In this document: piece after piece, positions 46,101-59,964 of the stretch
Layout of the letters: each line of letters begins with the position of its first letter
How positions within the stretch are numbered: the stretch's first letter is position 1
Assembly: GCF_001457795.1 (NCBI RefSeq)
Contig: NZ_LN898209.1
Coordinates: 62,001 to 126,000 of the forward strand
DNA: 64,000 bases
Source: Olsenella massiliensis
Lineage (GTDB): Bacteria > Actinomycetota > Coriobacteriia > Coriobacteriales > Atopobiaceae
Direction of reading: 5' to 3'
Notes under the pieces: generated by a model
What the model was told of the DNA's origin: nothing
What the model saw: the letters and a program-made list of their open reading frames with translations, nothing else
The model's database searches: none
Position numbers and translations under genes: made by a program

Positions 46101-46275
46101 GGAGCTTGAGGACAAGAGTGGGGAGATCGTGTCGTGCTGGCAGGATTCTCCCTGGCTGGCGGGGCGCATCGCACTTCTCATGAGGGAGGAGAAAAATGGG
46201 TTGCTCGTGACCACGATTTTGGGTCAGCGGCTTGAGTACTCCGCTCAGGTGGGTTTGCAGACCGTTTGCGGGTGA
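43198..46275 (+). CDS. cas3: CRISPR-associated nuclease-helicase Cas3 (type I-E)
   Basis: The effector nuclease that degrades DNA marked by Cascade. The 1025-residue protein has an N-terminal HD nuclease domain with LAGLHDLGKATPVF (His74-Asp75) and IGSHHGTFP, and a superfamily 2 helicase with Walker A APMGEGKTEAAL near residue 324, Walker B VVIIDECHAYDLYM (DECH box) near 470, SATLPSQLKKEM as motif III, and QRLGRTHRH as motif VI. A low-complexity Ala/Thr/Pro-rich insert lies near residues 545-580. GGGAGG precedes ATG 43198. A 145-bp leader with its own promoter separates it from casA. Confidence 0.97.
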   Translation: MDISPQARSLWGKSDYGAGEAWLPLAMHMLDSLGVARLLWDAWLPQGTRETLSRPLGGDQHVARSLLMLLAGLHDLGKATPVFQSTPSRTASSWDETLPDRVIRAGLCLRADFAERRLPTHAVAGEALVRELLCARGWGGRAAKALASVIGSHHGTFPQQKAAQDARLLYAAEMGAIGRGSEEWARVRKELSELVICRASVSSDLVCTLSENVLPAPVLSLLAGIVTMADWLASNQELFPLFPLGEDRWDKRVSDAFLEARLAQGWECADLPTPWHTSRTAVPLDETSFRERFGLPAGCVLRPIQAAMVKIAREHDDLGIVVLEAPMGEGKTEAALAAAEIMCAHGGMGGICVALPTMATTDAMFGRVRHWLDRLPHVDGEHDKSVTLAHGKSQLNEEFQSIKAASRRRQGSARGGGGIEGDVFASDWMSGRKKGMLANFVVCTVDQALMGALDMRHLSLRQVALANKVVIIDECHAYDLYMRQYLGRLLEWLGYWHNPVILLSATLPSQLKKEMVDAYLAGRKASGAQFATRARRHRPVSRWAQTSPAATPPAELTAAATSSAAPTAAATPASVSPSLEGTARGDAYPLITYTCGIERRELPCATSGRGVSLSLALMADDESELVRLLEERLVEGGVAGVVCDTVARAQRVFQVVREAFGEADVLLDHARFIDLDRLLIERSIRSLLGPAATRANGRRPKRLVVVGTQVLEQSLDIDFDLLVTDVAPVDLIFQRLGRTHRHVRGDGEKDRPDRLRTARCYVRGITSWEGGVPAFMDDVTKVYGEATLMEALSVLDLTDAGGRRDLALPQDIAPLVRAAYSKGVSGRVPEGWQEGYQRACAQREKKRREKMARARVCLLHSAVSSVTNEWNLDDLASSHCLGDAADLDAGERAVRDTQETVEVLLLRQGADGVSLLPWVGDDRRGILPGASVPVHACPEPALARLVAQGCVRLPLSLCNPQKIDLLIRELEDKSGEIVSCWQDSPWLAGRIALLMREEKNGLLVTTILGQRLEYSAQVGLQTVCG

Positions 46276-46304
46276 GAGATGACTGGCAGTTCTGCCGTGA
46301 TAAA

Positions 46305-46333
46305 TTGACTATGATGTTCAACATTCTCATTAT
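46305..46333 (+). promoter_or_regulatory. Putative casA promoter
   Basis: TTGACT (46305-46310) and CATTAT (46328-46333) are separated by 17 bp in an AT-rich stretch after cas3. Transcription would start near 46340, giving a leader of about 80 nt that includes the repeat-like hairpin at 46366-46393. Confidence 0.45.
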
Positions 46334-46365
46334 GAGTTGATCCAGTTGAGCATCAGAGTGAGGTA

Positions 46366-46393
46366 GTGTTCCCCGCCTCTGCGGGGCAGTTCC
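46366..46393 (+). repeat. CRISPR-repeat-like hairpin in the casA leader
   Basis: GTGTTCCCCGC, loop CTCT, then GCGGGGCAGTTCC matches the array repeat (GTGCTCCCCGC, loop ACAT, GCGGGGATGATCC) at 21 of 28 positions. The whole 6-bp stem CCCCGC/GCGGGG and the outer GTG and TCC ends are kept; differences are in the loop, the 3' handle and position 4. It lies 28 bp before the casA start and downstream of a likely promoter, so it would be present in the Cascade mRNA leader. Upstream, TTGATCC (46337-46343) echoes the 3' end of the repeat, 22 bp before this copy. Confidence 0.8.
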
Positions 46394-46420
46394 ATCGGCA
46401 TCCATCAGATGGGAGCGTCT

Positions 46421-48091
46421 ATGGCCGGACCTGAGCAACCTCTGTCGTTCAATCTGCTTGAGGAGGGATGGATTCCCGTCGTCTATCGTGACGGCAGCCA
46501 AGGTGAGCTGACGCTCGGGGACGTCTTTGCCCAGGCGCCGCGCATCCGAACCATAGAGGGGGATGTGCGCCAGCAGACCTTCGTTCTCTTGCGCCTTCTG
46601 CTTGCCGTCCTGTACCGCTCTCACCTTGACTTTACCGGCACCGAGGCCGACTTGCGCCTGTTTTGGAAGGAATCCTGGGAGGACGGCGCGTTTGACCTCA
46701 ATACGATCGACGCGTATCTGGACAGGTTTCACGACAGGTTTGACCTCTTTGACCCTGAGCATCCCTTCTTCCAGACGCCCGGCCTGCGCTATGTGAGCAA
46801 GGAGTACGATTCTGTCGGGGAGATGGTCGCGGACGTTCCCAAGCCCGAAAAGTTCCTCTTTTCGATGAGGGACCAGCACCACCTTGACTCGCTCGGCTTT
46901 GCCGAGGCAGCCCGCTGGCTCGTCTTCATGCAGGCCTTTGACCCGGCGGGCATCAAGTCTCCCGTCGTGGGAAACACGCACCAGAAGGCGGGAAGGGTCT
47001 ACGCCCCCCAGGGCGCCCTGGGAACGGGCGTCGCGGGTGCTCTGGGCGGCATCTTCGTCGAGGGTGACAATCTCTTTCAGACGCTCATGCTCAACTGGGT
47101 GCTCTACGACTCGGTCCGCAGCAAGGAGCACCCGCTGCTGGGCGTCGAGCGCGACCTGCCATCCTGGGAGCAGGACGACCGCAGCTGCGACATGGTGATC
47201 CAGGCGGCGGACGAGCCCTACGGCCCGGTGGGCATGTACGTCGCGCAGAGCAGGAGAGTGCGCCTGGTTCCCGATGCGTCCGCCCAGGTCGTCAGGGGCG
47301 TCATCTCCTGCTACGGCACCGTCGGCAGCGTTCTTGACAAGCAGCATGTCGAGCCGATGACCGCCTGGCGGGAGAGCCCCGCCCAGCAAAAGAAGCTCGG
47401 CCTGTCCCACGTGCCGCTCATGCCGCTGGCCCATGACCCCGCCCAATCGCTCTGGCGCGGACTGGGGTCCGTCATCGCCGCACGCGGCGCAACAGGCGAG
47501 CAGGACCTGCGCCCGGGCGTCATTCGCTGGATCGGCGCCCTTGAGGACGCTGACGTCTTTGAGGGCGCTTCGCCGCTCGTGACCCTCCATGCCCAGGGTA
47601 TGGTGTACGGGACTCAGAGCAGCGTGTTTTCCGAGGCAATCGATGACTCGTTTGCCATCCCCGCCATGGTCCTCAGAGACGCGTCGCGAACGCGCGCCCT
47701 TGCGGTGCAGGTCGTGGAGCAGGCAGCCAATGCCGCAGACGCCCTGGGTCGCTTCATGAACAACATTCGTAGGGCTGCGGGTGACAGGGGCGACGCCGCC
47801 CAGTACAGGGCCAAAACGACCAAGGTCAAGGAAGAGGCCTTCCGCGAGATGGACGGCCTCTGCAGGGAGCGCCTGCGCAATCTGGACAAGGCGGAGCAAG
47901 ACGAAGGCTACTTTGACGCCTGGCGCAACGAGATTCGTCGAATCATATGGGCCATCGGTCATCGATCGCTTAGCACCATGAGCGTCTCCTACTTTGAGGT
48001 GCATGACAAGATGTCCGTCGGGCGCGCCCTGCAGCTCTTTGAGCAATCGTTGGACAAGGCGCTTCCCGGCACGTCAAAGAGGCGCCAGTAG
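46421..48091 (+). CDS. casA: Cascade large subunit CasA (Cse1/Cas8e)
   Basis: The Cascade subunit that recognises the PAM and recruits Cas3. The 556-residue protein starts SFNLLEEGWIPVVYRDGS, as Cse1 proteins do, and has the family's DLNTIDAYLDRFHDRFDLFDPEHPFFQ region, seen here as residues about 95-120, and KAGRVYAPQGALG. The start is ATG 46421, with GGGAG just before; ATG 46409 is in frame but lacks a ribosome-binding site. A CRISPR-like hairpin lies in its leader. casB follows after 53 bp. Confidence 0.95.
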   Translation: MAGPEQPLSFNLLEEGWIPVVYRDGSQGELTLGDVFAQAPRIRTIEGDVRQQTFVLLRLLLAVLYRSHLDFTGTEADLRLFWKESWEDGAFDLNTIDAYLDRFHDRFDLFDPEHPFFQTPGLRYVSKEYDSVGEMVADVPKPEKFLFSMRDQHHLDSLGFAEAARWLVFMQAFDPAGIKSPVVGNTHQKAGRVYAPQGALGTGVAGALGGIFVEGDNLFQTLMLNWVLYDSVRSKEHPLLGVERDLPSWEQDDRSCDMVIQAADEPYGPVGMYVAQSRRVRLVPDASAQVVRGVISCYGTVGSVLDKQHVEPMTAWRESPAQQKKLGLSHVPLMPLAHDPAQSLWRGLGSVIAARGATGEQDLRPGVIRWIGALEDADVFEGASPLVTLHAQGMVYGTQSSVFSEAIDDSFAIPAMVLRDASRTRALAVQVVEQAANAADALGRFMNNIRRAAGDRGDAAQYRAKTTKVKEEAFREMDGLCRERLRNLDKAEQDEGYFDAWRNEIRRIIWAIGHRSLSTMSVSYFEVHDKMSVGRALQLFEQSLDKALPGTSKRRQ

Positions 48092-48144
48092 AAGGCGACC
48101 TATCGATTTGGCCAGACGATGGCGGAAAAGGAGGATGAGGAGTC

Positions 48145-48774
48145 GTGAATTCAGGCAGGTCAAGCACAAGCTCGTTGGTCAGGGCATATGTCAGCCGCAA
48201 GGTGGCGGAGCTTCAGGGTTCGTTCCTAGCGAGGTCAAGCTCGGCTCGCGCACAGTTGGCGAGGCTCCGCAGGCTCGACGCCCCGGGAGCCGGCTCGTGG
48301 ATGAGCGTGGGAGAGACCGTCTTTGCGGACATGCCCCTCGATGGGCTGCAGGATGCCGACGCTGAGCGGTTCATGCGCTCTGCCAAGCTGGCGCTCAAGC
48401 TCTATGCGCTGCATCAGCAGTCCAAGAAAAAGCCCATGGCAGTGCTTTTTGACAAGGACGCCCCATGGCGGGGAACTCTGGGGTCCGCCTGCTTCCAGGC
48501 GGGCCATCATCATGGCGACAACACGGGTGCCGCAGGCATCGAGAGGCGCATGTCATCGCTCGAGGCGGCGACTGAATGGGGCGCGGTCGAGGTCTGCCTG
48601 CGAGCACTGGTGCAACTGTTGCGCGCGCAAGACGTTCCGCTTGACTACGGCAGGCTCGCGCACGATCTCTATCTTCTGCAGATTCCGGAGGCCAAAGACG
48701 GCGTGCACATGAGCTGGGCGCGGGATTACTTTGCGTATCGGCCCACGCCAGAAGACGTCGACAAGGAGCAGTGA
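48145..48774 (+). CDS. casB: Cascade small subunit CasB (Cse2)
   Basis: Cse2 dimerises along the Cascade backbone and contacts target DNA. The 209-residue protein is mostly helical and has the typical RMSSLEAATEWGAVEVCLRAL region and DYGRLAHDLYLLQ, with conserved basic residues. The GTG start at 48145 follows GAGGAG. The first ~45 residues (Ser-rich, then LQGSFLARSSSARAQLARLRR at about 22-42) are somewhat longer than the compact E. coli protein. cas7 begins 49 bp downstream. Confidence 0.9.
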   Translation: MNSGRSSTSSLVRAYVSRKVAELQGSFLARSSSARAQLARLRRLDAPGAGSWMSVGETVFADMPLDGLQDADAERFMRSAKLALKLYALHQQSKKKPMAVLFDKDAPWRGTLGSACFQAGHHHGDNTGAAGIERRMSSLEAATEWGAVEVCLRALVQLLRAQDVPLDYGRLAHDLYLLQIPEAKDGVHMSWARDYFAYRPTPEDVDKEQ

Positions 48775-48823
48775 CGCAGGCCGCCTGCAATGCGGTTTTC
48801 ATGTCCAAACGAGGAGGAACATC

Positions 48824-49960
48824 ATGTTCGTTGACATCCATGTAATCCAGAACGTGCCGCCCAGCAACATCAACCGAGACGACACAGGTACGCCCAAGAC
48901 CGCCGTGTTTGGCGGCGCGCTCCGTGCTCGCGTGTCAAGTCAGGCCTGGAAGCACGCCATGAGAAAAAGCTTCATGCAGTACGTCCCAGCAGATGAGCTG
49001 GGGTGTCGCACGGCCCATGCTTGCGAACTCATCGCCGAGCGCATCGTCGCGCTCGATTCCGGCCTCGCCGAGGTCGCCGATGCGTGGGCGCAGGCCGTGC
49101 TGAGCGCGGCAGGGGTGAAGACTGAGCAATCTAAGCGCAAGGGCAAGGAGATGGGCACGCAGGTCACTCAATATCTCATCTTCATCGCAGAACGAGAGTT
49201 GGACAAGCTGGCAGCCCTTGCCGTCCGTCACGCTCGTGCGGGTGAGGACGCGTCCAAGCCTCCGAAGGAGCTCAAGAAGGAGGTGTCCAAGGCGTTTCAC
49301 GGCAGGCAGGCGCTCGACATAGCCCTCTTTGGCAGGATGCTTGCCGACGCCCCCGACCTCAGCACTGACGCATCGGCCCAGGTGGCCCATGCTATCTCCG
49401 TCGACAAGATCACCCAGGAGTATGACTACTTCACGGCGCTCGACGACTGTTCCGCCAATGACAACGCCGGCGCGTCCATGATCGAGTCCGTGGGCTTCAA
49501 CTCCTCGACGCTGTATCGCTATGCGACGGTAAACGTTGACTCCCTCCGTGAGCAGCTGGGCGATGACCAGGCGACCGTCGTGGGCGTCGAGGCATTTGTC
49601 AAGGCGTTCGTGCGCTCCATGCCCACGGGCAAGCAGAACACCTTTGCCAACAGGACCGTCCCCAGCACCGTCATCGTGGCGCTTCGGTCCGACCAGCCCA
49701 TCAATGCCTCTGCGGCGTTCGAGAAGCCCGTGCGCGCGCAGGAGGGCGCCTCAATTTCCGAACGCGCCGAGGAGCGTCTGGTCGAGCGCCTGATCAACAC
49801 CGAGCGAATGTATGGTTCCAAGGCAAGGCGGACATGGATTTCCTCCATTGACGGGCAGAGTCCGAAATTGGACGAGCTGGGGGTCGTTGAGGAGCTCCCT
49901 CAGATCTTCGAAGACGTCAAGGCAGCCATCCTGGCGGAGTTGAAGGGTGACGAGCAGTAA
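48824..49960 (+). CDS. cas7: Cascade backbone subunit Cas7e (CasC/Cse4)
   Basis: Six copies of Cas7 coat the crRNA spacer. The 378-residue protein begins FVDIHVIQNVPPSNINRDDT, with the typical PKTAVFGGALRARVSSQAWK, FGRMLADAP, and the thumb region DKITQEYDYFTALDD. The C-terminal YGSKARRTWISSIDGQSPK is normal. ATG 48824 follows GAGGAGG; the longer frame from 48731 overlaps the casB end and is not supported. Its stop overlaps the cas5 start by 1 bp. Confidence 0.96.
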   Translation: MFVDIHVIQNVPPSNINRDDTGTPKTAVFGGALRARVSSQAWKHAMRKSFMQYVPADELGCRTAHACELIAERIVALDSGLAEVADAWAQAVLSAAGVKTEQSKRKGKEMGTQVTQYLIFIAERELDKLAALAVRHARAGEDASKPPKELKKEVSKAFHGRQALDIALFGRMLADAPDLSTDASAQVAHAISVDKITQEYDYFTALDDCSANDNAGASMIESVGFNSSTLYRYATVNVDSLREQLGDDQATVVGVEAFVKAFVRSMPTGKQNTFANRTVPSTVIVALRSDQPINASAAFEKPVRAQEGASISERAEERLVERLINTERMYGSKARRTWISSIDGQSPKLDELGVVEELPQIFEDVKAAILAELKGDEQ

Positions 49961-50706
49961 TGGGCGTCTTGATGCTCAGGCTGGCGGGACCCCTTCAGTC
50001 GTGGGGGGACTCCTCGCGCTTCACGCGCAGGACCACACGACAAGAGCCCACCAAGAGCGGTGTCGTGGGGCTTGTGGCCTCGGCGTTGGGAAGGAGTCGG
50101 GAGGAGTCCGTCGAGGACCTGGCCCTTCTCGACTTTGGCGTGAGGATTGACCAGCCGGGGCGCCTGCTCCCTGACTTTCAGACGGAGCATCCTCTGGGCG
50201 ACACGAAAAAGTCCATGCCTCTCACCACCAGGTACTATCTTGCTGACGCCAAGTTCCTGGCCGCGCTCGGGGGAGACGACGAGCTGCTACGGGACATTGC
50301 GCGTGCTCTCAGGGCCCCCCGGTGGCCGCTCTTTCTGGGACGAAGGTCATGCCCGCCAGGCGAGCCGATCCTCATGGAGGCTCAGGAGTCCTACCAGGAC
50401 GTGAGGGACGCGCTGTCCCGGCATCCCTGGATCGCCTCGGAGCATGAACGACGACGTGTCGGCCAGACGGAGCTGCCCGTGCTGTGCGACGCCCGGGAGG
50501 GCGAGCCGTGCACGAGCCAGGCGGACTTTCCGCTGAGCTTCTCGGGGTCGGGGCGTACGTACGCACAGAGGGCGGTCTTCCACTTTGTCGTTGATGTCGC
50601 ATCCCTGCGCGCCGCGCAGGAAGGCGCGCAGGCTGACACGACGCCGGCGCGTGGGCATGGCAGGCCGCCACAGCTGGGGGATCACGACCCCATGAGTTTT
50701 GTATAG
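49960..50706 (+). CDS. cas5: Cascade subunit Cas5e (CasD)
   Basis: Cas5 binds the 5' handle of the crRNA. The 248-residue protein starts MGVLMLRLAGPLQSWGDSSR, a clear Cas5 signature, followed by RTTRQEPTKSGVVGLVASALG and the FQTEHPLGD loop. In Cascade it contacts the 8-nt handle and CasA. The ATG is coupled to the cas7 stop. The C-terminal ~30 residues (Ala/Thr-rich) are poorly conserved. Confidence 0.95.
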   Translation: MGVLMLRLAGPLQSWGDSSRFTRRTTRQEPTKSGVVGLVASALGRSREESVEDLALLDFGVRIDQPGRLLPDFQTEHPLGDTKKSMPLTTRYYLADAKFLAALGGDDELLRDIARALRAPRWPLFLGRRSCPPGEPILMEAQESYQDVRDALSRHPWIASEHERRRVGQTELPVLCDAREGEPCTSQADFPLSFSGSGRTYAQRAVFHFVVDVASLRAAQEGAQADTTPARGHGRPPQLGDHDPMSFV

Positions 50707-50718
50707 GAGGGTGTCAAC

Positions 50719-51411
50719 GTGTACATATCCAGGGTGCCGCTTAACGTGGCACGGCCCAATACGCTCAGGCTCGTGGCCTCATCGTACTTTGTGCATGCCG
50801 CAGTGGAGCACTGCTTTCCTCCCACGGCCCGACGCCTTGACGAAAAGGGGAGGGTGCTATGGAGGATTGACGCCAACCCCAAGGACAAGGACTCGCTCTG
50901 GCTGTATGTGGTAAGCCCCGAAAGGCCCGACTTCACTCATGTCGCCGACCAGTATGGGTGGCCCGCTGCGGCGCCGGGCGAGACGAAGGACTACTCCCCG
51001 CTTCTGGGCAAGATCGCGCAGGGGCAGAGCTGGCAGTTCAGGCTCAAGGCCAATCCCACGCGCCTCGTACGGACTGACAAGGGCAAGCGTCCCAACGAGA
51101 AGGTCGTGGGCACCATTCAAGGGCATGCGACCGAGGCGCAGCAGGTTGACTGGCTGCGGCGACAGGGCAACGTCCATGGCTTTGAGCTTGCGGTGTGGGA
51201 AGATGCGATGCCTTATGTGACTGTGACCCAGAGGCGTAAGGAGCGCTTCTCGCGTCAAGGCTCCACCGTGACGATATCGACCGCCGTGTTCGACGGCGTC
51301 CTCACCGTCACCGACGCGTCGGCGTTTGCCAGGGCGCTCTGTCAGGGGGTGGGCAGGTCAAAGAGCTTTGGGTGCGGCCTGCTTACCATCGCCCCCTGGA
51401 ACAGGAGATGA
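50719..51411 (+). CDS. cas6e: CRISPR RNA endonuclease Cas6e (CasE)
   Basis: Cas6e cuts the pre-crRNA at the base of each repeat hairpin and stays bound. The 230-residue protein starts MYISRVPLNVARPNTLRL and ends with the Gly-rich loop GVGRSKSFGCGLLTI; the His in SYFVHAAVEHCF is a candidate catalytic residue, as in other Cas6e proteins. It begins with GTG 50719 after AGGAGG. Its substrate here is the CCCCGC-GCGGGG stem; the same stem is present in the casA leader. Confidence 0.95.
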   Translation: MYISRVPLNVARPNTLRLVASSYFVHAAVEHCFPPTARRLDEKGRVLWRIDANPKDKDSLWLYVVSPERPDFTHVADQYGWPAAAPGETKDYSPLLGKIAQGQSWQFRLKANPTRLVRTDKGKRPNEKVVGTIQGHATEAQQVDWLRRQGNVHGFELAVWEDAMPYVTVTQRRKERFSRQGSTVTISTAVFDGVLTVTDASAFARALCQGVGRSKSFGCGLLTIAPWNRR

Positions 51412-51447
51412 TTGGCTCCAAGGGCGTCAATCGAGAGGTGGGATGAC

Positions 51448-52416
51448 ATGAGCCTGGGCAAGGGGGGAGCCAGGGGGACGCCCCCTCCCGACATCGTCGC
51501 GCTGGCACGAGCGGAGGACAGGCTTTCCTTCCTGTATGTTGAGCGCTGCAAGATTGGCAGGGACGAGAATGCCATCACGGTCTTTGACGCCGAGGGAGCG
51601 ACGTATGTTCCCTCAGCCACCCTGTCGGTGCTCATGTTGGGTCCCGGCAGCTCCATCACGCATGACGCGATGACGGTCATCGGGGAGAGCGGGTCCACGG
51701 TCGTGTGGGTTGGCGAGCGCGGTATACGCCTGTATGCCTTTGGGAAGCCGCTCACCCACTCGTCAGCCCTGTTGCAGCGTCAGGCTGCCTTGGTCTCCAA
51801 CCGCCGTGCGCGGCTTGGTGTGGCACGGCGGATGTATCAGCTGCGATTTCCTGACGAGGACGTCAGTGGGCTGACGATGCAGCAGCTCAGGGGAAGGGAG
51901 GGGGCGCGGGTTAGGAAGGTCTACCGAAACATGTCCACAGAGACGGGCGTTGAATGGAATCGCCGCGAGTACAATCCCAATGACTTTGATGACGCCTCGG
52001 AAATCAACAAGGCGCTGTCTGCGGCCCATGTCTGCCTGTATGCGCTGGCCCATTCCGTCATCGTGTCGCTCGGCTGCTCGCCAGGGCTTGGCTTTGTGCA
52101 TGTGGGCCATGAGCGCTCGTTCGTCTATGACGTTGCGGACCTGTATAAGACCGAGCTCTCCATCCCTGTCGCGTTTAGGATTGCCGCGCTCAAGCCCGCA
52201 AACATTGGGTCTGCGGTGCGGCGGGGCATGAGAGACGCCGTGTATGACCTGTCGATTCTCTCCCGCATGGTCAGGGACGTCAGGTCGCTGCTCATGGGGG
52301 ACGCCGCGGAGGGGGCCGTCGGGGAGAATGGGGAGGACGTCATTGCCCTTTGGGATGAGTGCGCGGGCGAGGTCCCTTCTGGACGGTCGTATGGCCGAGA
52401 TTTGGAGGAGGGTTGA
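51448..52416 (+). CDS. cas1: CRISPR integrase Cas1e
   Basis: Cas1 with Cas2 inserts new spacers next to the leader. The 322-residue protein has the N-terminal beta domain (VPSATLSVLMLGPGSSITHDAM, residues about 53-75) and a helical catalytic domain with the metal ligands Glu in STETGVEWNRREYN, His in GFVHVGHERSF and Asp in VYDVADLYK. ATG 51448 is preferred over the longer TTG-started frame from 51412; AGGTGGGATG lies before it. Cas2 follows without a gap. Confidence 0.96.
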   Translation: MSLGKGGARGTPPPDIVALARAEDRLSFLYVERCKIGRDENAITVFDAEGATYVPSATLSVLMLGPGSSITHDAMTVIGESGSTVVWVGERGIRLYAFGKPLTHSSALLQRQAALVSNRRARLGVARRMYQLRFPDEDVSGLTMQQLRGREGARVRKVYRNMSTETGVEWNRREYNPNDFDDASEINKALSAAHVCLYALAHSVIVSLGCSPGLGFVHVGHERSFVYDVADLYKTELSIPVAFRIAALKPANIGSAVRRGMRDAVYDLSILSRMVRDVRSLLMGDAAEGAVGENGEDVIALWDECAGEVPSGRSYGRDLEEG

Positions 52417-52830
52417 ATGGTTGTCATAGTGCTGACCGCCTGCCCCGCAGGCCTGCGAGGTGACTTGACGAGATGGCTGCTTGAGATTTCTCCCGGCGTG
52501 TACGTGGGGCACCTCTCTGCCCGCGTTCGCGAGGAGCTTTGGAGTCGTGTGACCTCCCTGGTGAGGGAGGGAAGGGCGATGATGGTTCATTCGGCACGGA
52601 ACGAGCAGCATCTGGCGTTTAGGGTCTTACGACCAGACTGGGAGCCTGTGGACTGTGAGGGTGTGACCCTGGTGTCGCGAAGGCCGGACGATGCGTACCA
52701 TGGGTTTCAGGGCAAGATGAAACCCGGCTGGAGCCATGCGAGCCAATATAGAAATGCTCACAGGTTTCGTGCTCAAGGAAAGAAGAACTATTTTTTGCCA
52801 GACGAGTCAGCGGATGAGAAAGTGAACTGA
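52417..52830 (+). CDS. cas2: CRISPR-associated Cas2e
   Basis: Cas2 bridges two Cas1 dimers in the integrase. The 137-residue protein has the Cas2e start MVVIVLTACPAGLRGDLTRW and GVYVGHLSARVREELW, as in type I-E systems. It carries a longer C-terminal tail than the ~95-residue E. coli protein, including KPGWSHASQYRNAHRFRAQ region near residue 105, which is rich in Lys/Arg/His. The ATG directly follows the cas1 stop. Only 39 bp separate its stop from the first CRISPR repeat. Confidence 0.95.
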   Translation: MVVIVLTACPAGLRGDLTRWLLEISPGVYVGHLSARVREELWSRVTSLVREGRAMMVHSARNEQHLAFRVLRPDWEPVDCEGVTLVSRRPDDAYHGFQGKMKPGWSHASQYRNAHRFRAQGKKNYFLPDESADEKVN

Positions 52831-52869
52831 TAATCCGCTACGGCATGCTTGACGTGCAGGAAAATAAGC
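52831..52869 (+). promoter_or_regulatory. CRISPR leader
   Basis: The 39 bp between the cas2 stop and the first repeat, ending GGAAAATAAGC. The leader function (promoter, integration site) must include part of the cas2 3' end. The nearest repeats are the uniform ones, which identifies this as the leader side. Confidence 0.6.
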
Positions 52870-53991
52870 GTGCTCCCCGCACATGCGGGGATGATCCCTC
52901 GGAACTCGTGCTTCTCGTGAAGCCAGAACTTGTGCTCCCCGCACATGCGGGGATGATCCCAAGGTTGACGTGCTTGACTGGCGGTTCGGGTTCGTGCTCC
53001 CCGCACATGCGGGGATGATCCCAACAGGGCGGTAGCGAACCTGACGAACGGGTCTTGTGCTCCCCGCACATGCGGGGATGATCCCGGACTTCTACCGCCT
53101 GAGGCAGGCGGTGTCGAAGTGCTCCCCGCACATGCGGGGATGATCCTCACCGTCGAGGACGTCATGAAAGACGTGGAAGAGTGCTCCCCGCACATGCGGG
53201 GATGATCCCTTCACGCCGAAGGCCTTGGTTCCGCCGTCCATGGTGCTCCCCGCACATGCGGGGATGATCCCCCGTTGGCCGTCTTCAAGCAGACGCGACT
53301 CGCAGTGCTCCCCGCACATGCGGGGATGATCCGGCCAAGACGGTCATCATAAGCGGCTCCGACATTGTGCTCCCCGCACATGCGGGGATGATCCTGCCTC
53401 GAAGGCGCATGAGGCGACCCCGCAAGAGGTGCTCCCCGCACATGCGGGGATGATCCCCCTCAGGAATGATGCGGTCCATGCAGTCGCCCTGTGCTCCCCG
53501 CGCATGCGGGGATGATCCTCCGGGTATCCGGTTTTCAAGGTGCGCAAGGCTTGTGCTCCCCGCGCATGCGGGGATGATCCCGAAAGCTGCCCGAAGGCGA
53601 TTGTCGAGGACTTCGTGCTCCCCGCGCATGCGGGGATGATCCCCTCGTGCCGGCGTCCCTGGCGCTCCGCCTGCTGGTGCTCCCCGCGCATGCGGGGATG
53701 ATCCTGAGGGCGAAGCAAAAGCAGACCGAGAAGGCCTCGTGCTCCCCGCGCATGCGGGGATGATCCGCAACGTGAGGCGCTTCATATAGCAATTGAGGCC
53801 AATCCCTCCCAAATAGGTGGGTGGGAGTTGGCCTCGCCACCAATATACCCATCAGCGACACGTCGTGTCAACGTGCTCCCCGCGCATGCGGGGATGATCC
53901 GGTCGTGGCCAAAGAGCAGGTGACCGCATCCAAGTGCCCTATGATTTCCTTCCGGGCGCTCTCGGTCATGTCAGCCGCGCTGTGCTCCCCG
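52870..53991 (+). CRISPR. Type I-E CRISPR array, 16 full repeats plus one truncated
   Basis: The 28-bp repeat is GTGCTCCCCGC, loop ACAT or GCAT, GCGGGGATGATCC. Repeats start at 52870, 52932, 52994, 53057, 53119, 53181, 53243, 53305, 53367, 53429, 53491, 53553, 53615, 53677, 53739 and 53873. Spacers are 34 bp, except one of 35 bp (53022-53056) and one gap of 106 bp before the last full repeat. Repeats 1-10 have loop ACAT; 11-16 have GCAT. A final truncated repeat, GTGCTCCCCG, starts at 53982. Cas genes and the uniform repeats are both on the left side, so new spacers enter there. Open frames on the reverse strand are repeat artefacts. Confidence 0.98.
53795..53835. other. Long hairpin inside the CRISPR array
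   Basis: GAGGCCAA (53795-53802) pairs with TTGGCCTC (53828-53835), with inner pairing CTCCCA / TGGGAG around a loop containing AATAGGTGG. It sits in the 106-bp stretch between repeats 15 and 16, where one normal spacer-repeat-spacer would measure 96 bp. Confidence 0.7.
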
Positions 53992-54226: not shown

Positions 54227-55018
54227 TCACGCGCTGCCCGCCCTTGCCCTGGGAATGGGACTATCTTTGCCGAAGCCGATGTAATAGCGGTAACTTTTGC
54301 CAATGTAGTAGTTCTCCGTGAGTTCGCAATAGCCGGCGCTCGTGTCGCGCGTGAGTCGCGTGCGTTTGAGCACGGGCTCCCGCCGTCCGATGCCAAGGTG
54401 CTCGCAGATGATCGCTGGGGCGCAGATGGCCTCGACGCTCTCCTGCACCAGGTGGGGTTCGATGCCTTTCCGTCGAATCATCTCATAGAGTGAGCCTTGG
54501 TACGCCTTTGGATCCAAGGTAAAGCGCTCGCACGGGGTGATGCGCGACACCATGTAGGTGAAGGGCTTCCCCGCCGTGCCTCGCAGACGTTCGAGCACCA
54601 GCAGGCTCTCGCCCTCGGGAACGTCAAGGACGCAGGAGACCAGACGGTCAGCAGGCTCCGTCCGCACTTTCGCCCAGAACGTCACGGCACTCTCGCCAAG
54701 CTCATGCACCTCGTCGGAAAAGCCCTTTACCAGCGTGAAGTGCCCGTCAAGACGACGAGTTCCGGGCCGTTGCACAAAGGTCCCACGGGCGCGGTGTCGC
54801 TCGATGAGCCCCTCGCGCACCAAGGCATCGAGCGCCTTGCGCACGGTCGTGCGACTTACGTGGTAGCGTTCGCACAGTTCGAGCTCGGGCGGGATCTGGC
54901 TGCCCACCTCCCAGCTCCCGTCTAGGATTTTGCCACGAATGGACTGCTCAACAATGGAGTAGAGCGGCGTGGTGGCTGACGTGTCGATGACGTCTCCATC
55001 ACGGGGTGCGCGCGTCAT
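54227..55018 (-). CDS. GntR-family regulator with UTRA domain
   Basis: A 263-residue regulator: winged helix at residues 10-80 (PLYSIVEQSIRGKILDGSW, ELELCERYHVSRTTVRKALD) and a UTRA ligand-binding domain (SLLVLERLRGTAGKPFTYMV, LYEMIRRKGIEPHLVQESVE). The HutC-subfamily UTRA domain usually binds sugar phosphates or similar small ligands. It is divergent from the cupin isomerase operon, and ATTGT-AATG-ACAAT upstream of that operon is a likely site. GGAGG precedes ATG 55018; the longer frame to 55174 covers the dispersed repeat. Confidence 0.92.
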   Translation of the reverse strand: MTRAPRDGDVIDTSATTPLYSIVEQSIRGKILDGSWEVGSQIPPELELCERYHVSRTTVRKALDALVREGLIERHRARGTFVQRPGTRRLDGHFTLVKGFSDEVHELGESAVTFWAKVRTEPADRLVSCVLDVPEGESLLVLERLRGTAGKPFTYMVSRITPCERFTLDPKAYQGSLYEMIRRKGIEPHLVQESVEAICAPAIICEHLGIGRREPVLKRTRLTRDTSAGYCELTENYYIGKSYRYYIGFGKDSPIPRARAGSA

Positions 55019-55069
55019 GAGGCCTCCCAAATCGCCGTGCCGGTCTTCCAATACCAAACCCCGCCGTTC

Positions 55070-55116
55070 AAAGTGTACGTTTGAAGCCCTCTTCACAACG
55101 CTTATCTGGGCAAACG
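55070..55116 (+). repeat. 47-bp dispersed element, right of the CRISPR-Cas locus
   Basis: Matches the reverse complement of 42968-43014 at 42 of 47 positions. It lies in the gap between the GntR gene and the cupin operon. Beyond the shared 47 bp the two diverge, although both have CGCACG-type sequences nearby. Confidence 0.85.
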
Positions 55117-55281
55117 TAAAAGGTAGCCTTCGCAACGCACGCTTTGTTGCGATGTCTCCTCCAGGTCGCCCCAAGCCGTCCCGGCCATACGGCGCAAAGC
55201 CGACCTGCCCTCAGCCGGGCCTTTGTATCCTCCAGAAAGAACAGCGTCGCCCCTCCTAACCATGGGATACTTACATCATCC

Positions 55282-55295
55282 ATTGTAATGACAAT
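55282..55295 (+). promoter_or_regulatory. Operator candidate for the GntR regulator
   Basis: ATTGT (55282-55286), AATG, ACAAT (55291-55295) form a perfect 5-bp-armed inverted repeat 17 bp before the start of the isomerase operon, a typical position for a GntR repressor site. Confidence 0.55.
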
Positions 55296-55311
55296 ACGAA
55301 AGGGGCACGTC

Positions 55312-57222
55312 ATGCGCAATGCGCCTCATGGAACCCTCGGCCCGACGACACATGATGCGGCCGACCCCGCCCGGCGCGCACCCAGTTCCTACGTTCAGCG
55401 TCCCAGCCTGCGCATCGAGGGGGCGACAGGGGCGGTATGCGGCCCGGGCGCCATCGTCGAGCGGCTGCGGACCCTTATCGAGCAGGCGAGCCTCGCCTCC
55501 TCGCCGCGCACCATCCTCGCGCTCGAGTGCTATCCCGGCGTCGACCTCGCCGCTCTGCGCGAGGCCATCGTCCGGCCGCTGTCGCCCGCGCTCGTGATCG
55601 ACGCGGACGAGCTCATGCAGGATGCCGCCGACATCCAGGAGCGCATCGCCGACTGCGTCACCGATGATCGCGTCTTTGGCGTCATGTCCCATCACGTCAT
55701 CGACGACTTTCTGGACGAGAGGCGCCTGAGCGCCGCACGCGAGCGCGCCGCCGCCGCTGAGGGCCTCGTCGTCGTGCTGGGGTTTGGCGCTACCTGCCTG
55801 GCACGTCCCGACGTCCTCGCCTACGCGGAGCTCACGCGCTGGGAGGTGCAGCTGCGCTGGCGCAGCGGCGCGCCCAACTGGAAGGCCGACAACCCTCACG
55901 AGGACCAGCTGCGTAAGTTCAAGCGCGGATACTTCTTCGAGTGGCGGGTCGCCGACCGGCTCAAGCGTCGCATCTTGCCCGACGTCGACCTGCTCATTGA
56001 CGCCAACGCGCAGGATCCGTCCGGCCTCACGGCCATCCCGGGCGCCGTCTGGCGAGAGGGTCTGCGTCAGTTTGCCAGCAGGCCTTTCCGCCTTGTTCCC
56101 TACTTTGACGCGAGTCCCTGGGGCGGCACCTGGATGGAGGACCGCTTTGGCCTTGCCCCCAAAAAGGCCAACTACGGCTGGGCCTTCGACGGCGTGCCCG
56201 AGGAGAACAGCGTGATTATGGACGTGGAGGGTACGCCGGTGGAGGTTCCCGCCATGGACGTCGTGCTCTCGCAGCCCGATCTGCTGCTGGGGCCGCTCGT
56301 GCGGGCTCGCTTCGGGGCCGAGTTTCCCATTCGCTTTGACTTTTTGGACACCTGGGACGGCGGCAACCTGAGTCTGCAGGTGCATCCGCGCACGGAGTAC
56401 GCCTTCGACCGCTTTGGCCTGGCCTACACTCAGGACGAGAGCTACTACATCTTTGACGCCCGCGAGGGGTCCACGGTGTACCTGGGCCTCAAGACGGGCG
56501 TGAGCAAGGGCGAATTCGTCGCCGCGCTCGAACGAGCCCAAAAGACGGGCGAAAAGCTTGACGTCGAGCGTTACGTCAACGCCATTCCGGTGTCCAGGCA
56601 TGACCATGTCTCGATACCGGCGGGCACCATACATTGCTCGGGCTCCAACACGGTGGTCCTGGAGATCAGCGCCACTCCCTACATCTTTACGTTCAAGCTC
56701 TGGGACTGGGGTCGCCTGGGTCTGGACGGCAAGCCTCGGCCCATCAACATCGAGCGCGGCGCGCAGAACATCGTCGAGGGGCGCGACACCGCCTACTGCA
56801 ATGAGCGCCTCGTGAACAGGATGGAGCCCGGCGAGGCGGACGCCCAGCTGGCGCCTGGCGCTCAGGGCGCCGCCTCGTTGCACGATGACGAGGGGCCCGG
56901 CACGCATACGGGCCTCAGCGAGATGGAGTTCATCGAGACCCGCCGCCTCTGGCTCGCCGACGAGCTCACGCTCGACACGCGGGGCACCGTCAACATGCTC
57001 AATCTCGTGGAGGGCAGCGCCGTGGAGGTCATGCCCCTTGGGGACGGCGCACTCTTCGCGAACGGGGCGGACGAACAGTCCCCCAAGGCGGACCCCCTGT
57101 GCGCCCACTACGGCGAGACCTTCATCGTGCCCGCGAGCGTCGGTCGCTTCCGCATCCGCAACGTGGGCAGGGGGCGCGCCGCCGTCGTGAGGGCTTGCGT
57201 CCGCAACACCGAGACACGCTAG
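55312..57222 (+). CDS. Class I mannose-6-phosphate isomerase with N-terminal extra domain
   Basis: A 636-residue protein. The C-terminal two-thirds (from about residue 245, FRLVPYFDASPWGGTWMEDR) is a cupin-type class I phosphomannose isomerase: SLQVHPRTEYAF, DESYYIFDAREGS, HVSIPAGTIHCSG provide zinc ligands. The first ~240 residues look like a nucleoside-kinase-like fold (AIVERLRTLIEQASL, TILALECYPGVDLAALREAI, VFGVMSHHVIDDFLDE), but the Walker A glycine/lysine pattern is missing, so kinase activity is doubtful. It leads an operon with two cupin isomerases. GAAAGGGG lies before ATG 55312. Confidence 0.85.
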   Translation: MRNAPHGTLGPTTHDAADPARRAPSSYVQRPSLRIEGATGAVCGPGAIVERLRTLIEQASLASSPRTILALECYPGVDLAALREAIVRPLSPALVIDADELMQDAADIQERIADCVTDDRVFGVMSHHVIDDFLDERRLSAARERAAAAEGLVVVLGFGATCLARPDVLAYAELTRWEVQLRWRSGAPNWKADNPHEDQLRKFKRGYFFEWRVADRLKRRILPDVDLLIDANAQDPSGLTAIPGAVWREGLRQFASRPFRLVPYFDASPWGGTWMEDRFGLAPKKANYGWAFDGVPEENSVIMDVEGTPVEVPAMDVVLSQPDLLLGPLVRARFGAEFPIRFDFLDTWDGGNLSLQVHPRTEYAFDRFGLAYTQDESYYIFDAREGSTVYLGLKTGVSKGEFVAALERAQKTGEKLDVERYVNAIPVSRHDHVSIPAGTIHCSGSNTVVLEISATPYIFTFKLWDWGRLGLDGKPRPINIERGAQNIVEGRDTAYCNERLVNRMEPGEADAQLAPGAQGAASLHDDEGPGTHTGLSEMEFIETRRLWLADELTLDTRGTVNMLNLVEGSAVEVMPLGDGALFANGADEQSPKADPLCAHYGETFIVPASVGRFRIRNVGRGRAAVVRACVRNTETR

Positions 57223-57235
57223 GAGGCGCGCCAGC

Positions 57236-58015
57236 ATGGACTTCTGTCCCGGATTTGACATCCGCCCCGACGAAACCGGCCTTTCCTTTTCCTACGGTCC
57301 CGACGTGTTTGGGCCCGTGGCCGAGCGGCGCCACCTTGATGACATCCGCATGAGCCTGCTTGACCCGGCCTGCAAGGGTCCGGTCGTTCCGTACGTCGTG
57401 GCGATGGACGTGGGCAAGGTGCGCGACCGCAGCGACCTCGTCGCGCGGAACCTCCTGTACGGCGCCATGACGTACGCGGCGGGGACCTTGGGCAGGGAGC
57501 CCGTGAGGAGCCAGGGCCACATCCACGCCGTCTCCGCGTCCTGCGGCATGTCCACGCCCGAGGTGTACGAAATCTGGGAGGGCGAGGCCATCGTTCTCAT
57601 GCAGGAGACGGCCCATGAGGACCCCGGCCGCTGCCTGGCCGTTCGCGGAGGAGCGGGAGACGTCATCATCGTGCCGCCCGGCTGGGCCCACTACACCGTC
57701 AACGCCGATCCCACCCGCCGCATGTCCTTTGGGGCCTGGTGCGTGCGCGACTACGGCTTTGACTATGCCGAGATTCGCTCTCGGGGCGGTCTCGCGTACT
57801 TTCCGCTGATTGACGGCGAGGGTCACGTGACGTGGGTGGCAAACGAGCGCTACGCCCCGCGCGGGATCACGGACGTCGCGCCCCACGTCTATGTCGAGCT
57901 CGGCCTTGAGGCAGGCGTTCCCATCTATGCCCAGTACGAGCGCGATCACGGTCGCTTTGACTTCGTGGCCCGCCCCTGGCTCGCACAGGAGGTCTGGGCG
58001 GCCTTCAGGCCCTGA
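57236..58015 (+). CDS. Cupin-type glucose-6-phosphate isomerase
   Basis: A 259-residue cupin similar to the archaeal-type glucose-6-phosphate isomerase. Metal ligands are in RSQGHIHAVSAS, STPEVYEIWEGEA and PPGWAHYTVNADP (His-x-His, Glu, His). The family interconverts glucose- and fructose-6-phosphate, but some members act on other sugars. It follows the mannose-6-phosphate isomerase by 13 bp, with AGGAGG before the ATG. The substrate is inferred from family only. Confidence 0.82.
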   Translation: MDFCPGFDIRPDETGLSFSYGPDVFGPVAERRHLDDIRMSLLDPACKGPVVPYVVAMDVGKVRDRSDLVARNLLYGAMTYAAGTLGREPVRSQGHIHAVSASCGMSTPEVYEIWEGEAIVLMQETAHEDPGRCLAVRGGAGDVIIVPPGWAHYTVNADPTRRMSFGAWCVRDYGFDYAEIRSRGGLAYFPLIDGEGHVTWVANERYAPRGITDVAPHVYVELGLEAGVPIYAQYERDHGRFDFVARPWLAQEVWAAFRP

Positions 58016-58115
58016 CGCCCGCCCGACCTTCGGTCTTGTCCGCGAGCCTGGCCCACGGACGCCCGCGCCGTCCCGACCGACCGTTTGCATGCGCGCACCA
58101 GAAAGGAGATCAACC

Positions 58116-58682
58116 ATGGACATCGTCATGCCCCCCAGCGCCATCCAGCCCCCGGGCGTCGAGCCCCTCATTGGTCCTGACGTCACGTGGAGCGAGAAGC
58201 GCGCCGTCGACCTTGCCGGCGTGTATCAGCACCCCGAGGCCCTCAAGGAGTTTGGCCCCGGCTTCGTGGCCTATAGCGTCGCGCATCAGAACTGCCATCC
58301 CGGCGACGACGAGCTCGGAAGGCTCGTGTGGGGCACCACCTACGTCAGGCCGTTCACCGTGGCAGGGGAGTGCGCCATGACCCACGGGCACTATCACCTT
58401 GACCCTCGCTGCGACGAGTACTACTTTGGCCTTGCGGGCACGGGCTTTTTGCTGCTTTGGGACGGGGCCGACGATCTGCGCGCCGAGGAGATTCGCCCGG
58501 GCTCCCTGCACTACATCGCGGGCAGGTATGCGCACCGGATCATCAACGCGGGCGACGAGGTGCTTGCCGTCGCCGCCTGCTACTTGAGCGCCACCCAGCA
58601 GGACCACCTGCGCATCGAGCGCGAGCCGTTTCCCTGCCGCTGCTTCCGTCGTGACGGCAGGATAGAGTGGGCGGCATCGTAG
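58116..58682 (+). CDS. Cupin-type sugar-phosphate isomerase, second copy
   Basis: A 188-residue cupin of the same glucose-6-phosphate isomerase family, shorter and only distantly like its neighbour. Ligand motifs are THGHYHLDPRCDEYYFGLAG and GRYAHRIIN, giving His-x-His, Glu and His; YVRPFTVAGECAMTHGHY precedes the first, in residues about 76-93. AAGGAG lies before ATG 58116. It closes the operon, 100 bp after the previous gene; a strong terminator follows. Confidence 0.82.
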   Translation: MDIVMPPSAIQPPGVEPLIGPDVTWSEKRAVDLAGVYQHPEALKEFGPGFVAYSVAHQNCHPGDDELGRLVWGTTYVRPFTVAGECAMTHGHYHLDPRCDEYYFGLAGTGFLLLWDGADDLRAEEIRPGSLHYIAGRYAHRIINAGDEVLAVAACYLSATQQDHLRIEREPFPCRCFRRDGRIEWAAS

Positions 58683-58741
58683 GACAAAGGCGGACGGCGC
58701 CATCGTAGGCGGGAGGCGGGCGTCATCGTAGGCGCACGATT

Positions 58742-58773
58742 CCAGGGGTGCCCCTCCGAAGGGGCGCCCCTGG
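58742..58773 (+). terminator. Terminator of the cupin isomerase operon
   Basis: CCAGGGGTGCCCCT (58742-58755) and AGGGGCGCCCCTGG (58760-58773) pair with one G-T wobble around a 4-base loop. The 316-bp gap to pstS also has three scattered CATCGTAGG copies before this hairpin. Confidence 0.85.
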
Positions 58774-58866
58774 CCCTCTCGGCTCGTCGGCGGGCCGTCC
58801 TTGGGGCTCCGAGGCGTCGCCTGGCCTGCGCGCCGTCGCCATCTCGCCCCCGCACGGGGCATACTT

Positions 58867-58883
58867 TGTAAGACGCGTGTAAG
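58867..58883 (+). promoter_or_regulatory. Direct repeat resembling a Pho box upstream of pstS
   Basis: TGTAAG occurs at 58867-58872 and 58878-58883, an 11-bp period as in PhoP/PhoB binding direct repeats; a third, weaker CGTAAT lies at 58899-58904. It is about 120 bp before the pstS start. Confidence 0.4.
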
Positions 58884-58998
58884 GGATGGTCACTCAACCG
58901 TAATGGCCTGCTGACGAGCGCCAAATCACCCTCCTCGGCTCACTAAGCTACAGGGTGAACAGGACCGGTGCGCCGGTCTCATCACCGAGAGGAGAGAC

Positions 58999-59964
58999 AT
59001 GCCTATCCCTACGAAGAATGCGAACCTTTCTCGCCGCAACTTTTTCCTGTTTGCCGGGTCAGCCGCAGCCGCCTTGTCCGGACTCGGACTGGTGGGTTGC
59101 TCGGGTTCGGGCGCCGCGAGCAACGGTGGCTCCACCGGCTCCGCAGACTCCTCGAGCGCCAAGAAGGTGTCGGGCAGCGTGACGGCGGTTGGCTCGACCG
59201 CGCTCCAGCCTCTCGTCGAGGCCGCTGCGGAGAAGTTCATGGAGACCAACCCCGACGTCCAGATCACCGTCCAGGGCGGCGGTTCCGGCCAGGGCATCAC
59301 CCAGATCAGCCAGGGTGCCGTCCAGATCGGCAACTCCGACGTCTTTGCCGAGTCCAAGCTGAGCAACCCCGACGACGCCAAGAAGCTCATCGACAACAAG
59401 GTTGCCATCGTCGGCATGGGTCCCGTCGTCCATCCCGAGGTCTCCATCGACGACGTCACGCTTGACCAGCTCAAGGGCATCTTCACGGGCGCCATCACCA
59501 ACTGGAAGGAAGTCGGCGGCCAGGACCTCGCCATCACGGTGATCAACCGCGCGTCCGGCTCGGGCACCCGTGCCACCTTCGAGGGCGCCGTCCTGGGCGG
59601 CGCCAAGGTTCCCGAGAGCTTCAAGCCCCAGGAGCAGGACTCCTCCGGCACCGTCGCAAAGATGGTCGCCGAGACCCCCGGCTCGATCAGCTACCTTGCC
59701 TTCTCCTACTTCTCCGACAAGCTCAAGGCCCTCAAGGTCGGCGGCGTCGAGCCCAAGGAGGAGACCGTCGAGACCAACGACTGGACCATCTGGGCCTACG
59801 AGCACATGTACACCTCCACCAGCCCCGACGAGGCCACGCAGGCCTTCATCGACTACATGCTCTCCGACGACGTCCAGGGCTCCCTGGTCGAGCAGACGGG
59901 CTACATCCCCGTCACGGGCATGAAGGTCACGCGCGACGCCTCTGGTAACGTCACCAAGAAATAG
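58999..59964 (+). CDS. pstS: Phosphate-binding lipoprotein PstS
   Basis: Binds phosphate outside the membrane for the Pst importer. The 321-residue protein has a twin-arginine-type signal (NLSRRNFFLFAGSAAAAL) ending in a lipobox LVGC near Cys34, then VSGSVTAVGSTALQPLVEAA, QITVQGGGSGQGITQI, and INRASGSGTRATFEGAVL, which form the phosphate site with Ser, Arg and Thr residues. AGAGGAGAG precedes the start. A Pho-box-like repeat is upstream. Confidence 0.96.
   Translation: MPIPTKNANLSRRNFFLFAGSAAAALSGLGLVGCSGSGAASNGGSTGSADSSSAKKVSGSVTAVGSTALQPLVEAAAEKFMETNPDVQITVQGGGSGQGITQISQGAVQIGNSDVFAESKLSNPDDAKKLIDNKVAIVGMGPVVHPEVSIDDVTLDQLKGIFTGAITNWKEVGGQDLAITVINRASGSGTRATFEGAVLGGAKVPESFKPQEQDSSGTVAKMVAETPGSISYLAFSYFSDKLKALKVGGVEPKEETVETNDWTIWAYEHMYTSTSPDEATQAFIDYMLSDDVQGSLVEQTGYIPVTGMKVTRDASGNVTKK

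Follow-up and report, generated by a model that had tools for sequence, protein, structure and literature searches.

In the genome of Olsenella massiliensis three adjacent genes, here called A, B and C, encode predicted hexose-phosphate isomerases, and a gene for a GntR/UTRA regulator is divergent from them (Table 1). They lie in a 64,000-nucleotide stretch of contig NZ_LN898209.1, which we refer to as the window. The three open reading frames have the boundaries given in the original prediction, an earlier reading of this DNA from its letters only, with A forming a single frame of 636 residues (55312-57222); all three are open, and their codon usage is coding-like. A combines an N-terminal domain (N-domain) with the fold of a type I phosphomannose isomerase (PMI), and it is followed by two different cupins of the glucose-6-phosphate isomerase (GPI) type, as had been predicted. 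The stop codon of A and the start of B are 13 bases apart, and 100 bases separate B from C. No transporter, kinase or glycoside hydrolase (GH) gene adjoins the run, in agreement with the original prediction as far as transporter and kinase are concerned. A sigma-70-type promoter was not found in 54900-59050, and none of the four proteins was matched by PADLOC. The hairpin downstream of C may end the transcript ahead of pstS; six hairpins of the terminator type were counted in the scanned region as compared to 2.3 in shuffles, all of them matches to a consensus only.

Table 1. Features of the A-B-C locus, with coordinates given as positions in the window.
Feature	Coordinates	Strand	Remarks
GntR/UTRA regulator (HutC-type), 263 residues	54230..55018	-	Pfam GntR 4.9e-21, UTRA 1.2e-20
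Putative operator ATTGTAATGACAAT	55282..55295		between GntR gene and A, 16 bases 5' of the A start codon
A residues 1-255, N-domain	55312..56076	+	conservation from about residue 26; 49-member alignment
A residues 256-636, type I PMI fold	56077..57222	+	metal site intact
B (P0002, 259 residues), GPI-family cupin	57236..58015	+	insert between metal ligands
C (P0003, 188 residues), GPI-family cupin	58116..58682	+	metal site intact
Terminator-like hairpin	58846..58860	+	3' of C, 5' of pstS; consensus scan only

To place this gene set in a wider frame we compared 80 loci picked by homology to B; being the best 80 of 283 relatives, they are biased towards B-like sets. Presence was scored by tblastn, C being counted only outside matches to B, and A was found in 66 loci, C in 58 and all three genes in 51. 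In the gene calls, which cover 75 runs, A appears in 59 runs and 65 loci and C in 53 loci; B was not called in five of the 80 loci (GC-rich DNA, wrong strand), and in several of L083-L096 an antisense frame was called in place of A. According to their record titles the loci belong to Bacillota, Bacteroidota, Planctomycetota, Verrucomicrobiota, Spirochaetota, Fusobacteriota, Chlamydiota and Actinomycetota, and B shares 50-60% identity with the window protein across phyla. The gene order varies (CAB in 22, BCA in 11 and ABC in 7 of the 75 runs), indicating that the set is kept together as a module and not by recent descent alone. The neighbourhood comparison thus supports the dedicated operon that had been proposed. 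In the window's family, cupins of PF06560 occur in 23 of 121 genomes and long PMIs of the A type in 49 (matches at E ≤ 1e-87). One of the five genomes of the genus encodes a full-length B, a second one has a 26% partial match, and the set of genome G024 (L067) is without C. B stands without A or C in seven of the 80 loci, three of which are records of less than 9 kb (L117, L126, L171). In the Lachnospiraceae loci L112, L137, L151 and L153 a solitary B lies far from sugar genes, with a phosphoglucose isomerase (PGI) also present; in L137 and L151 it follows two genes that look sporulation-like by eye.

An ordinary PGI is encoded in 119 of the 121 family genomes, including the window genome, and in all 32 other carriers tested, which come from the 80 loci, so that 33 carriers have one if the window genome is counted. 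The classical ManA of the window genome is located inside another operon for a phosphotransferase system (PTS) of the Man family (C13:676865-677827). B and C are thus not housekeeping enzymes, and a role as PGI replacement or, as the original prediction had argued, in general glycolysis was rejected.

The GntR protein of the window clusters with GntR proteins whose genes adjoin the same operon elsewhere. The perfect palindrome ATTGTAATGACAAT is the sole exact copy in the genome, ATTGTNNNNACAAT occurs once in the window and in none of 100 shuffles, and ATTGTNATNACAAT is found without mismatch once in the whole genome of 1.82 Mb. A site with one mismatch (G000:C13:513053) precedes the gene for a large repeat-rich surface-type protein and was taken as chance. 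The core TTGTN4ACAA is present in 19 of the 188 upstream regions taken from the surroundings of such operons, a count in which divergent gene pairs score the same site twice, as compared to a mean of 0.9 and a maximum of 4 in mononucleotide shuffles; palindromes with spacings of 2, 3 or 5 stayed at chance level in these regions. Carriers of the core are Granulicatella, Tetragenococcus, C. asparagiforme, Peribacillus, Enterococcus, Anaerostipes and the window, the same operator thus preceding such operons in Bacilli and Clostridia. The GntR site suggested earlier is therefore borne out as a sequence element, and both domains of the regulator together with a palindrome common to the operons of the family point to a GntR/UTRA repressor with a palindromic operator. 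Listeria has a long PMI gene with a divergent GntR gene (lmo2143/lmo2144 by neighbourhood) that resembles the window in its signature and has three copies of TGTN4ACA in the intergenic region, but neither B nor C lies beside it. Excerpts of two papers call this protein just mannose-6-phosphate isomerase (PMC12596718, PMC2996996).

We then analysed the isomerase domain of A; here and below, residue counts refer to the window protein together with part of the other sequences (49 of 58 full-length ones for A, 39 of 71 for B, 35 of 53 for C). A matches Bacillus subtilis ManA (1qwr) by sequence in residues 256-485 (E = 1.6e-13), and its model aligns with the 1qwr fold over residues 256-630 (Z 32.0, root-mean-square deviation 2.7, 310 aligned residues), although A stays below the Pfam cut-off for type I PMI. 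The metal ligands Q356, H358, E376 and H441 are present in 50 of 50 long PMIs, a further likeness to ManA. Unlike ManA, which has no N-domain of about 230 residues, all 50 have Gln374 in place of Lys114, Asp343 in place of Lys85 and Lys462 in place of Arg193 (B. subtilis numbering given second). Lys114 is the base that takes the C2 proton in the B. subtilis mannose-6-phosphate isomerase, according to the part of PMC4718643 available to us. The position is occupied by Lys in 1qwr and in all three classical proteins from the loci, and seven extra annotated records of long PMIs have the same Asp and Gln changes; in the A protein of Streptomyces residue 462 is Arg, and the Gln ligand is replaced by His. 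With fold and metal site kept but these three residues replaced, A is, as judged from its residues, PMI-like and a distant PMI, and we do not file it as canonical type I PMI. The mannose-6-phosphate isomerase label originally given to A holds for the fold and the metal ligands, but not for the catalytic Lys.

B and C both pass the cut-off of the Pfam GPI family (PF06560; 70.5 and 60.3 bits, cut-off 20.7), and the top twelve Foldseek hits of B are PGIs of Pyrococcus or Thermococcus or an engineered protein. The metal ligands of Pyrococcus furiosus PGI (His88, His90, Glu97, His136) are kept in 40 of 40 B and 36 of 36 C sequences, and B is also alike in fold. Proton transfer in the P. furiosus enzyme involves Tyr152 and His158, as stated in an excerpt of PMC6627849. 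All 40 B proteins differ from it by having Cys in place of Tyr152, Phe in place of His158 and Ser in place of Thr85, and B further has an insert between the metal ligands and a longer C-terminus. As the proton-transfer pair is replaced throughout, B is no ordinary PGI by its residues. C has Trp in place of Tyr152 in 33 of 36 sequences and retains His158 in 35 of 36, the window copy being the one exception: here Gln162 replaces His158 and His164 replaces Tyr160. Moreover, the window protein forms the longest end branch of the C tree (3.33 as compared to a median of 0.47). These two features suggest that C of the window may be altered or failing.

PTS and ROK kinases both yield sugar phosphates, and genes for either are found beside many of the isomerase sets. 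Out of the 80 loci 22 contain a PTS (Man family or lactose/cellobiose enzyme IIC, EIIC), 23 a ROK gene, none both and 35 neither (hypergeometric p = 1.3e-4, uncorrected for kinship). The window genome has seven Man-family EIID genes and three ROK genes. One of its PTS operons (G000:C13:150476-153357) is, depending on the subunit, 57-81% identical to the EIIABCD proteins encoded beside A in eight relatives, which make up 8 of the 29 loci where A was called, the window being one of these 29. L081, L082, L086, L089 and L090 show the order PTS, small membrane protein, A; L088 and L093 have a further called frame in between, and L080 has A ahead of the PTS and no small protein. In the window genome, PTS and small protein are followed by a DeoR-type gene at the usual place of A. 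As this PTS is orthologous to the A-adjoining one of the relatives, with the DeoR-type gene replacing A, it is probably the in-trans partner of the window operon. The lack of a transporter gene, which had been read as a sign of an unusual pathway, loses that meaning in view of this orthologue and of the relatives with an adjoining PTS or ROK gene. In two genomes of the family, L062 (9172-10608) and L063 (6810-8210) encode, beside the cupin-PMI operon, a protein of 466-478 residues with PTS lactose/cellobiose IIB-like and ROK domains, which may be a regulator responding to PTS phosphorylation.

Which sugar enters by this route is suggested by the surroundings of A. A lies with GH76-GH92-GH76-ROK in Spirosoma, with GH38/GH76/GH125/ROK in Streptomyces, with a porter and GH92 in two Hymenobacter records and with ROK-GH92-MFS-GH38 in P. 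distasonis, and ROK and ABC genes are near A in Deinococcus and Arthrobacter records. In Flammeovirga kamogawensis a ROK domain is fused ahead of the long PMI in one frame of 886 residues (L209:6963-9623), which adjoins a sugar porter and GH92. The location of A in alpha-mannan clusters and the ROK fusion make mannose 6-phosphate the likeliest substrate of A. The operon of L066 (G011:C132) has A and B as its last genes and resembles, in names assigned to the sequences by eye, one for L-ascorbate use, with a UlaA-like EIIC, UlaE/UlaF-like enzymes, transketolase halves, transaldolase and RpiB.

We favour, with a confidence midway between doubt and belief, an inducible entry module for hexose 6-phosphates that is centred on mannose. 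A hexose would be imported and phosphorylated at C6, in the window genome probably by the Man-family PTS encoded in trans and in other carriers by a PTS or a ROK kinase. A would convert mannose 6-phosphate, or a close relative, to fructose 6-phosphate, and B and C would be further metal cupin isomerases acting on a second hexose phosphate freed from the same glycosides. C would be the more PGI-like of the two in most carriers, and in O. massiliensis it would contribute if its altered copy works; B would have a different substrate or a proton path unlike that of the known glucose-6-phosphate/fructose-6-phosphate isomerases. The GntR/UTRA protein would repress the operon via ATTGTAATGACAAT, and a sugar phosphate would release it.

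Several observations speak against this module. The key residue of A, Gln in place of the catalytic Lys, argues against activity on mannose 6-phosphate, and because of this we do not hold the module more firmly. In addition, C of the window has lost His158 and Tyr160, two residues that the other 35 of the 36 sequences keep, the window operon contains no mannan enzyme, the exact operator does not occur at the in-trans PTS, and the mutual exclusion of PTS and ROK genes may follow phylogeny. Finally, the C-ROK-B-porter-GH-GH2-SusCD locus of P. distasonis, whose GH is the uncharacterised PDB 3gyc, is separate from the A/mannan locus of this organism, so that B and C may serve their own sugar, perhaps not mannose at all.

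A second reading concerns the window genome only, and although we do not favour it we give it appreciable weight: its set might be decaying or reshuffled, with A parted from its PTS and C deprived of catalytic residues, so that A and B alone would still matter. C of the window is alone among the 36 sequences in having both replacements and forms the longest end branch of the C tree, a DeoR-type gene stands after the PTS at the usual place of A in the relatives, full-length B is confined to one of the five genomes of the genus, and the set of G024 has already been noted to be without C. By contrast, the three open, coding-like frames and the perfect operator are not what decay would predict.

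The N-domain of A is common to long PMIs across phyla, and the 49-member alignment shows eight invariant residues in it (Y74, D119, R182, N189, K204, F208, W211, K218). It is always part of a long frame, of at least 486 residues in each of the seven genomes, out of 296 from the phylum, that gave a match. The original prediction had called it kinase-like but Walker-less. The second part is correct, as ECYPGV, with Y74, G76 and V77 conserved, stands at the Walker position, YPGV thus replacing the Walker A motif GxxxxGK[ST]. The kinase likeness found no support: Pfam has no family for the window's N-domain and none that recurs in more than two of the 49 members even at E ≤ 10, scattered hits including one thymidylate kinase at 0.018, and a by-eye resemblance to uridine-kinase motifs was dropped when hhalign gave a probability of 0.6% against six uridine kinases. 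A PDB profile search with the N-domain returned nothing under E 0.3, and fold searches, in which it was part of the whole protein, gave lists filled by the cupin part and no match to it, which does not speak for a new fold. Of the ordinary explanation that had been considered, a domain common to such isomerases and of known role, the first half is thus true and the second is not. Possibly, though we are doubtful, the N-domain is a non-catalytic sensor of a ligand or partner that gates the isomerase. Its invariant residues, the missing Walker A motif and the constant linkage to a long frame would suit such a role, but invariant charged residues are equally compatible with catalysis and the searches recognised no fold. 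A sensory N-domain and a decaying C are both compatible with the mannose module or with a route for a rare hexose, and the confidences expressed here do not sum to one.

Such a route is a tentative possibility. It would start with the phosphorylation at C6, by kinase or PTS, of a sugar that is neither mannose nor glucose, e.g. a C3/C4 epimer; B, C and A would act in series on the product with specificities of a new kind, and the PMI and PGI names would be wrong for all three. This would agree with the replaced catalytic residues (three sites in 50 of 50 A, Tyr152 and His158 in 40 of 40 B), with a genome that already encodes PGI and ManA, with the strong conservation of B across phyla, and with B/C sets that occur without A next to ROK, porter, GH (PDB 3gyc) and GH2 genes. 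However, a solitary A in alpha-mannan clusters has the same Lys-to-Gln and Lys-to-Asp changes, and among the gene families common to the loci no recurring ketose 3- or 4-epimerase was noticed. Allose, altrose and tagatose are speculative candidates, suggested on chemical grounds. The unusual hexose of the original prediction is likewise possible. In the same tentative sense, the trio might constitute an unrecognised hexose pathway across phyla, in which B would isomerise or epimerise, in a reaction new to cupins, a hexose 6-phosphate other than those of glucose, mannose and fructose, and A, on account of its N-domain and of an active site without the Lys, would be a new type of two-domain isomerase concealed by the mannose-6-phosphate isomerase label.

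We regard as unlikely a glucomannan-type module in which A acts on mannose 6-phosphate and B and C are plain glucose-6-phosphate isomerases for the glucose half, after the pattern of gmu but with PGIs of the cupin type. In L113 and L114 the trio, and in L119 A plus B, are accompanied by GH1, a cellobiose-type PTS EIIC and GntR, L129 has GH1 and the same type of EIIC with a PRD regulator replacing GntR, and GH2 and cellulase-like GH genes occur in 7 and 3 of the 75 runs, respectively. Yet two extra PGIs would be superfluous where every carrier tested has its own, B is without the proton-transfer pair of PGI, and GH genes are missing from the window operon. The B. subtilis gmu operon comprises PTS, GH1, GntR, kinase and PMI, according to the accessible portion of PMC11669640. 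The mannose-centred module that we favour would work in a similar way and resembles it in the GntR repressor, in a hexose 6-phosphate delivered by PTS or kinase and in a PMI, and GH1 and a cellobiose-type PTS are also found in some carriers of the trio. However, neither the cupin pair nor a long PMI belongs to gmu, and the window run lacks PTS, GH (including GH1) and kinase genes, its PTS lying in trans. The beta-1,2-mannoside cluster of Thermoanaerobacter, as described in an excerpt of PMC4264767, is a different gene cluster.

Upstream of the GntR gene, window positions 43198-53920 hold a Type I system of clustered regularly interspaced short palindromic repeats (CRISPR-Cas; Cas3 HD-helicase, CT1975-like protein) and then a repeat array, in which 16 copies of repeats of about 28 bases are listed with a spacing of mostly 62 bases. 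A link of the isomerase genes to CRISPR-Cas or to the downstream pstSCAB-phoU genes was discarded, as neither recurred across the other loci.

Neither the trio nor the N-domain of A was found described in open PMC papers, a scope outside which subscription papers and preprints fall. Three families carry the names PMI and PGI in databases and would be assigned to glycolysis by metabolic models, yet they have the look of a regulated pathway of their own, with unusual active sites. Should A or B prove to have a new activity, predictions of sugar use would change for many gut and soil bacteria. The N-domain of the long PMIs, which Listeria has as well, lends itself clearly to structural work, and the common operator provides a handle on the inducer.

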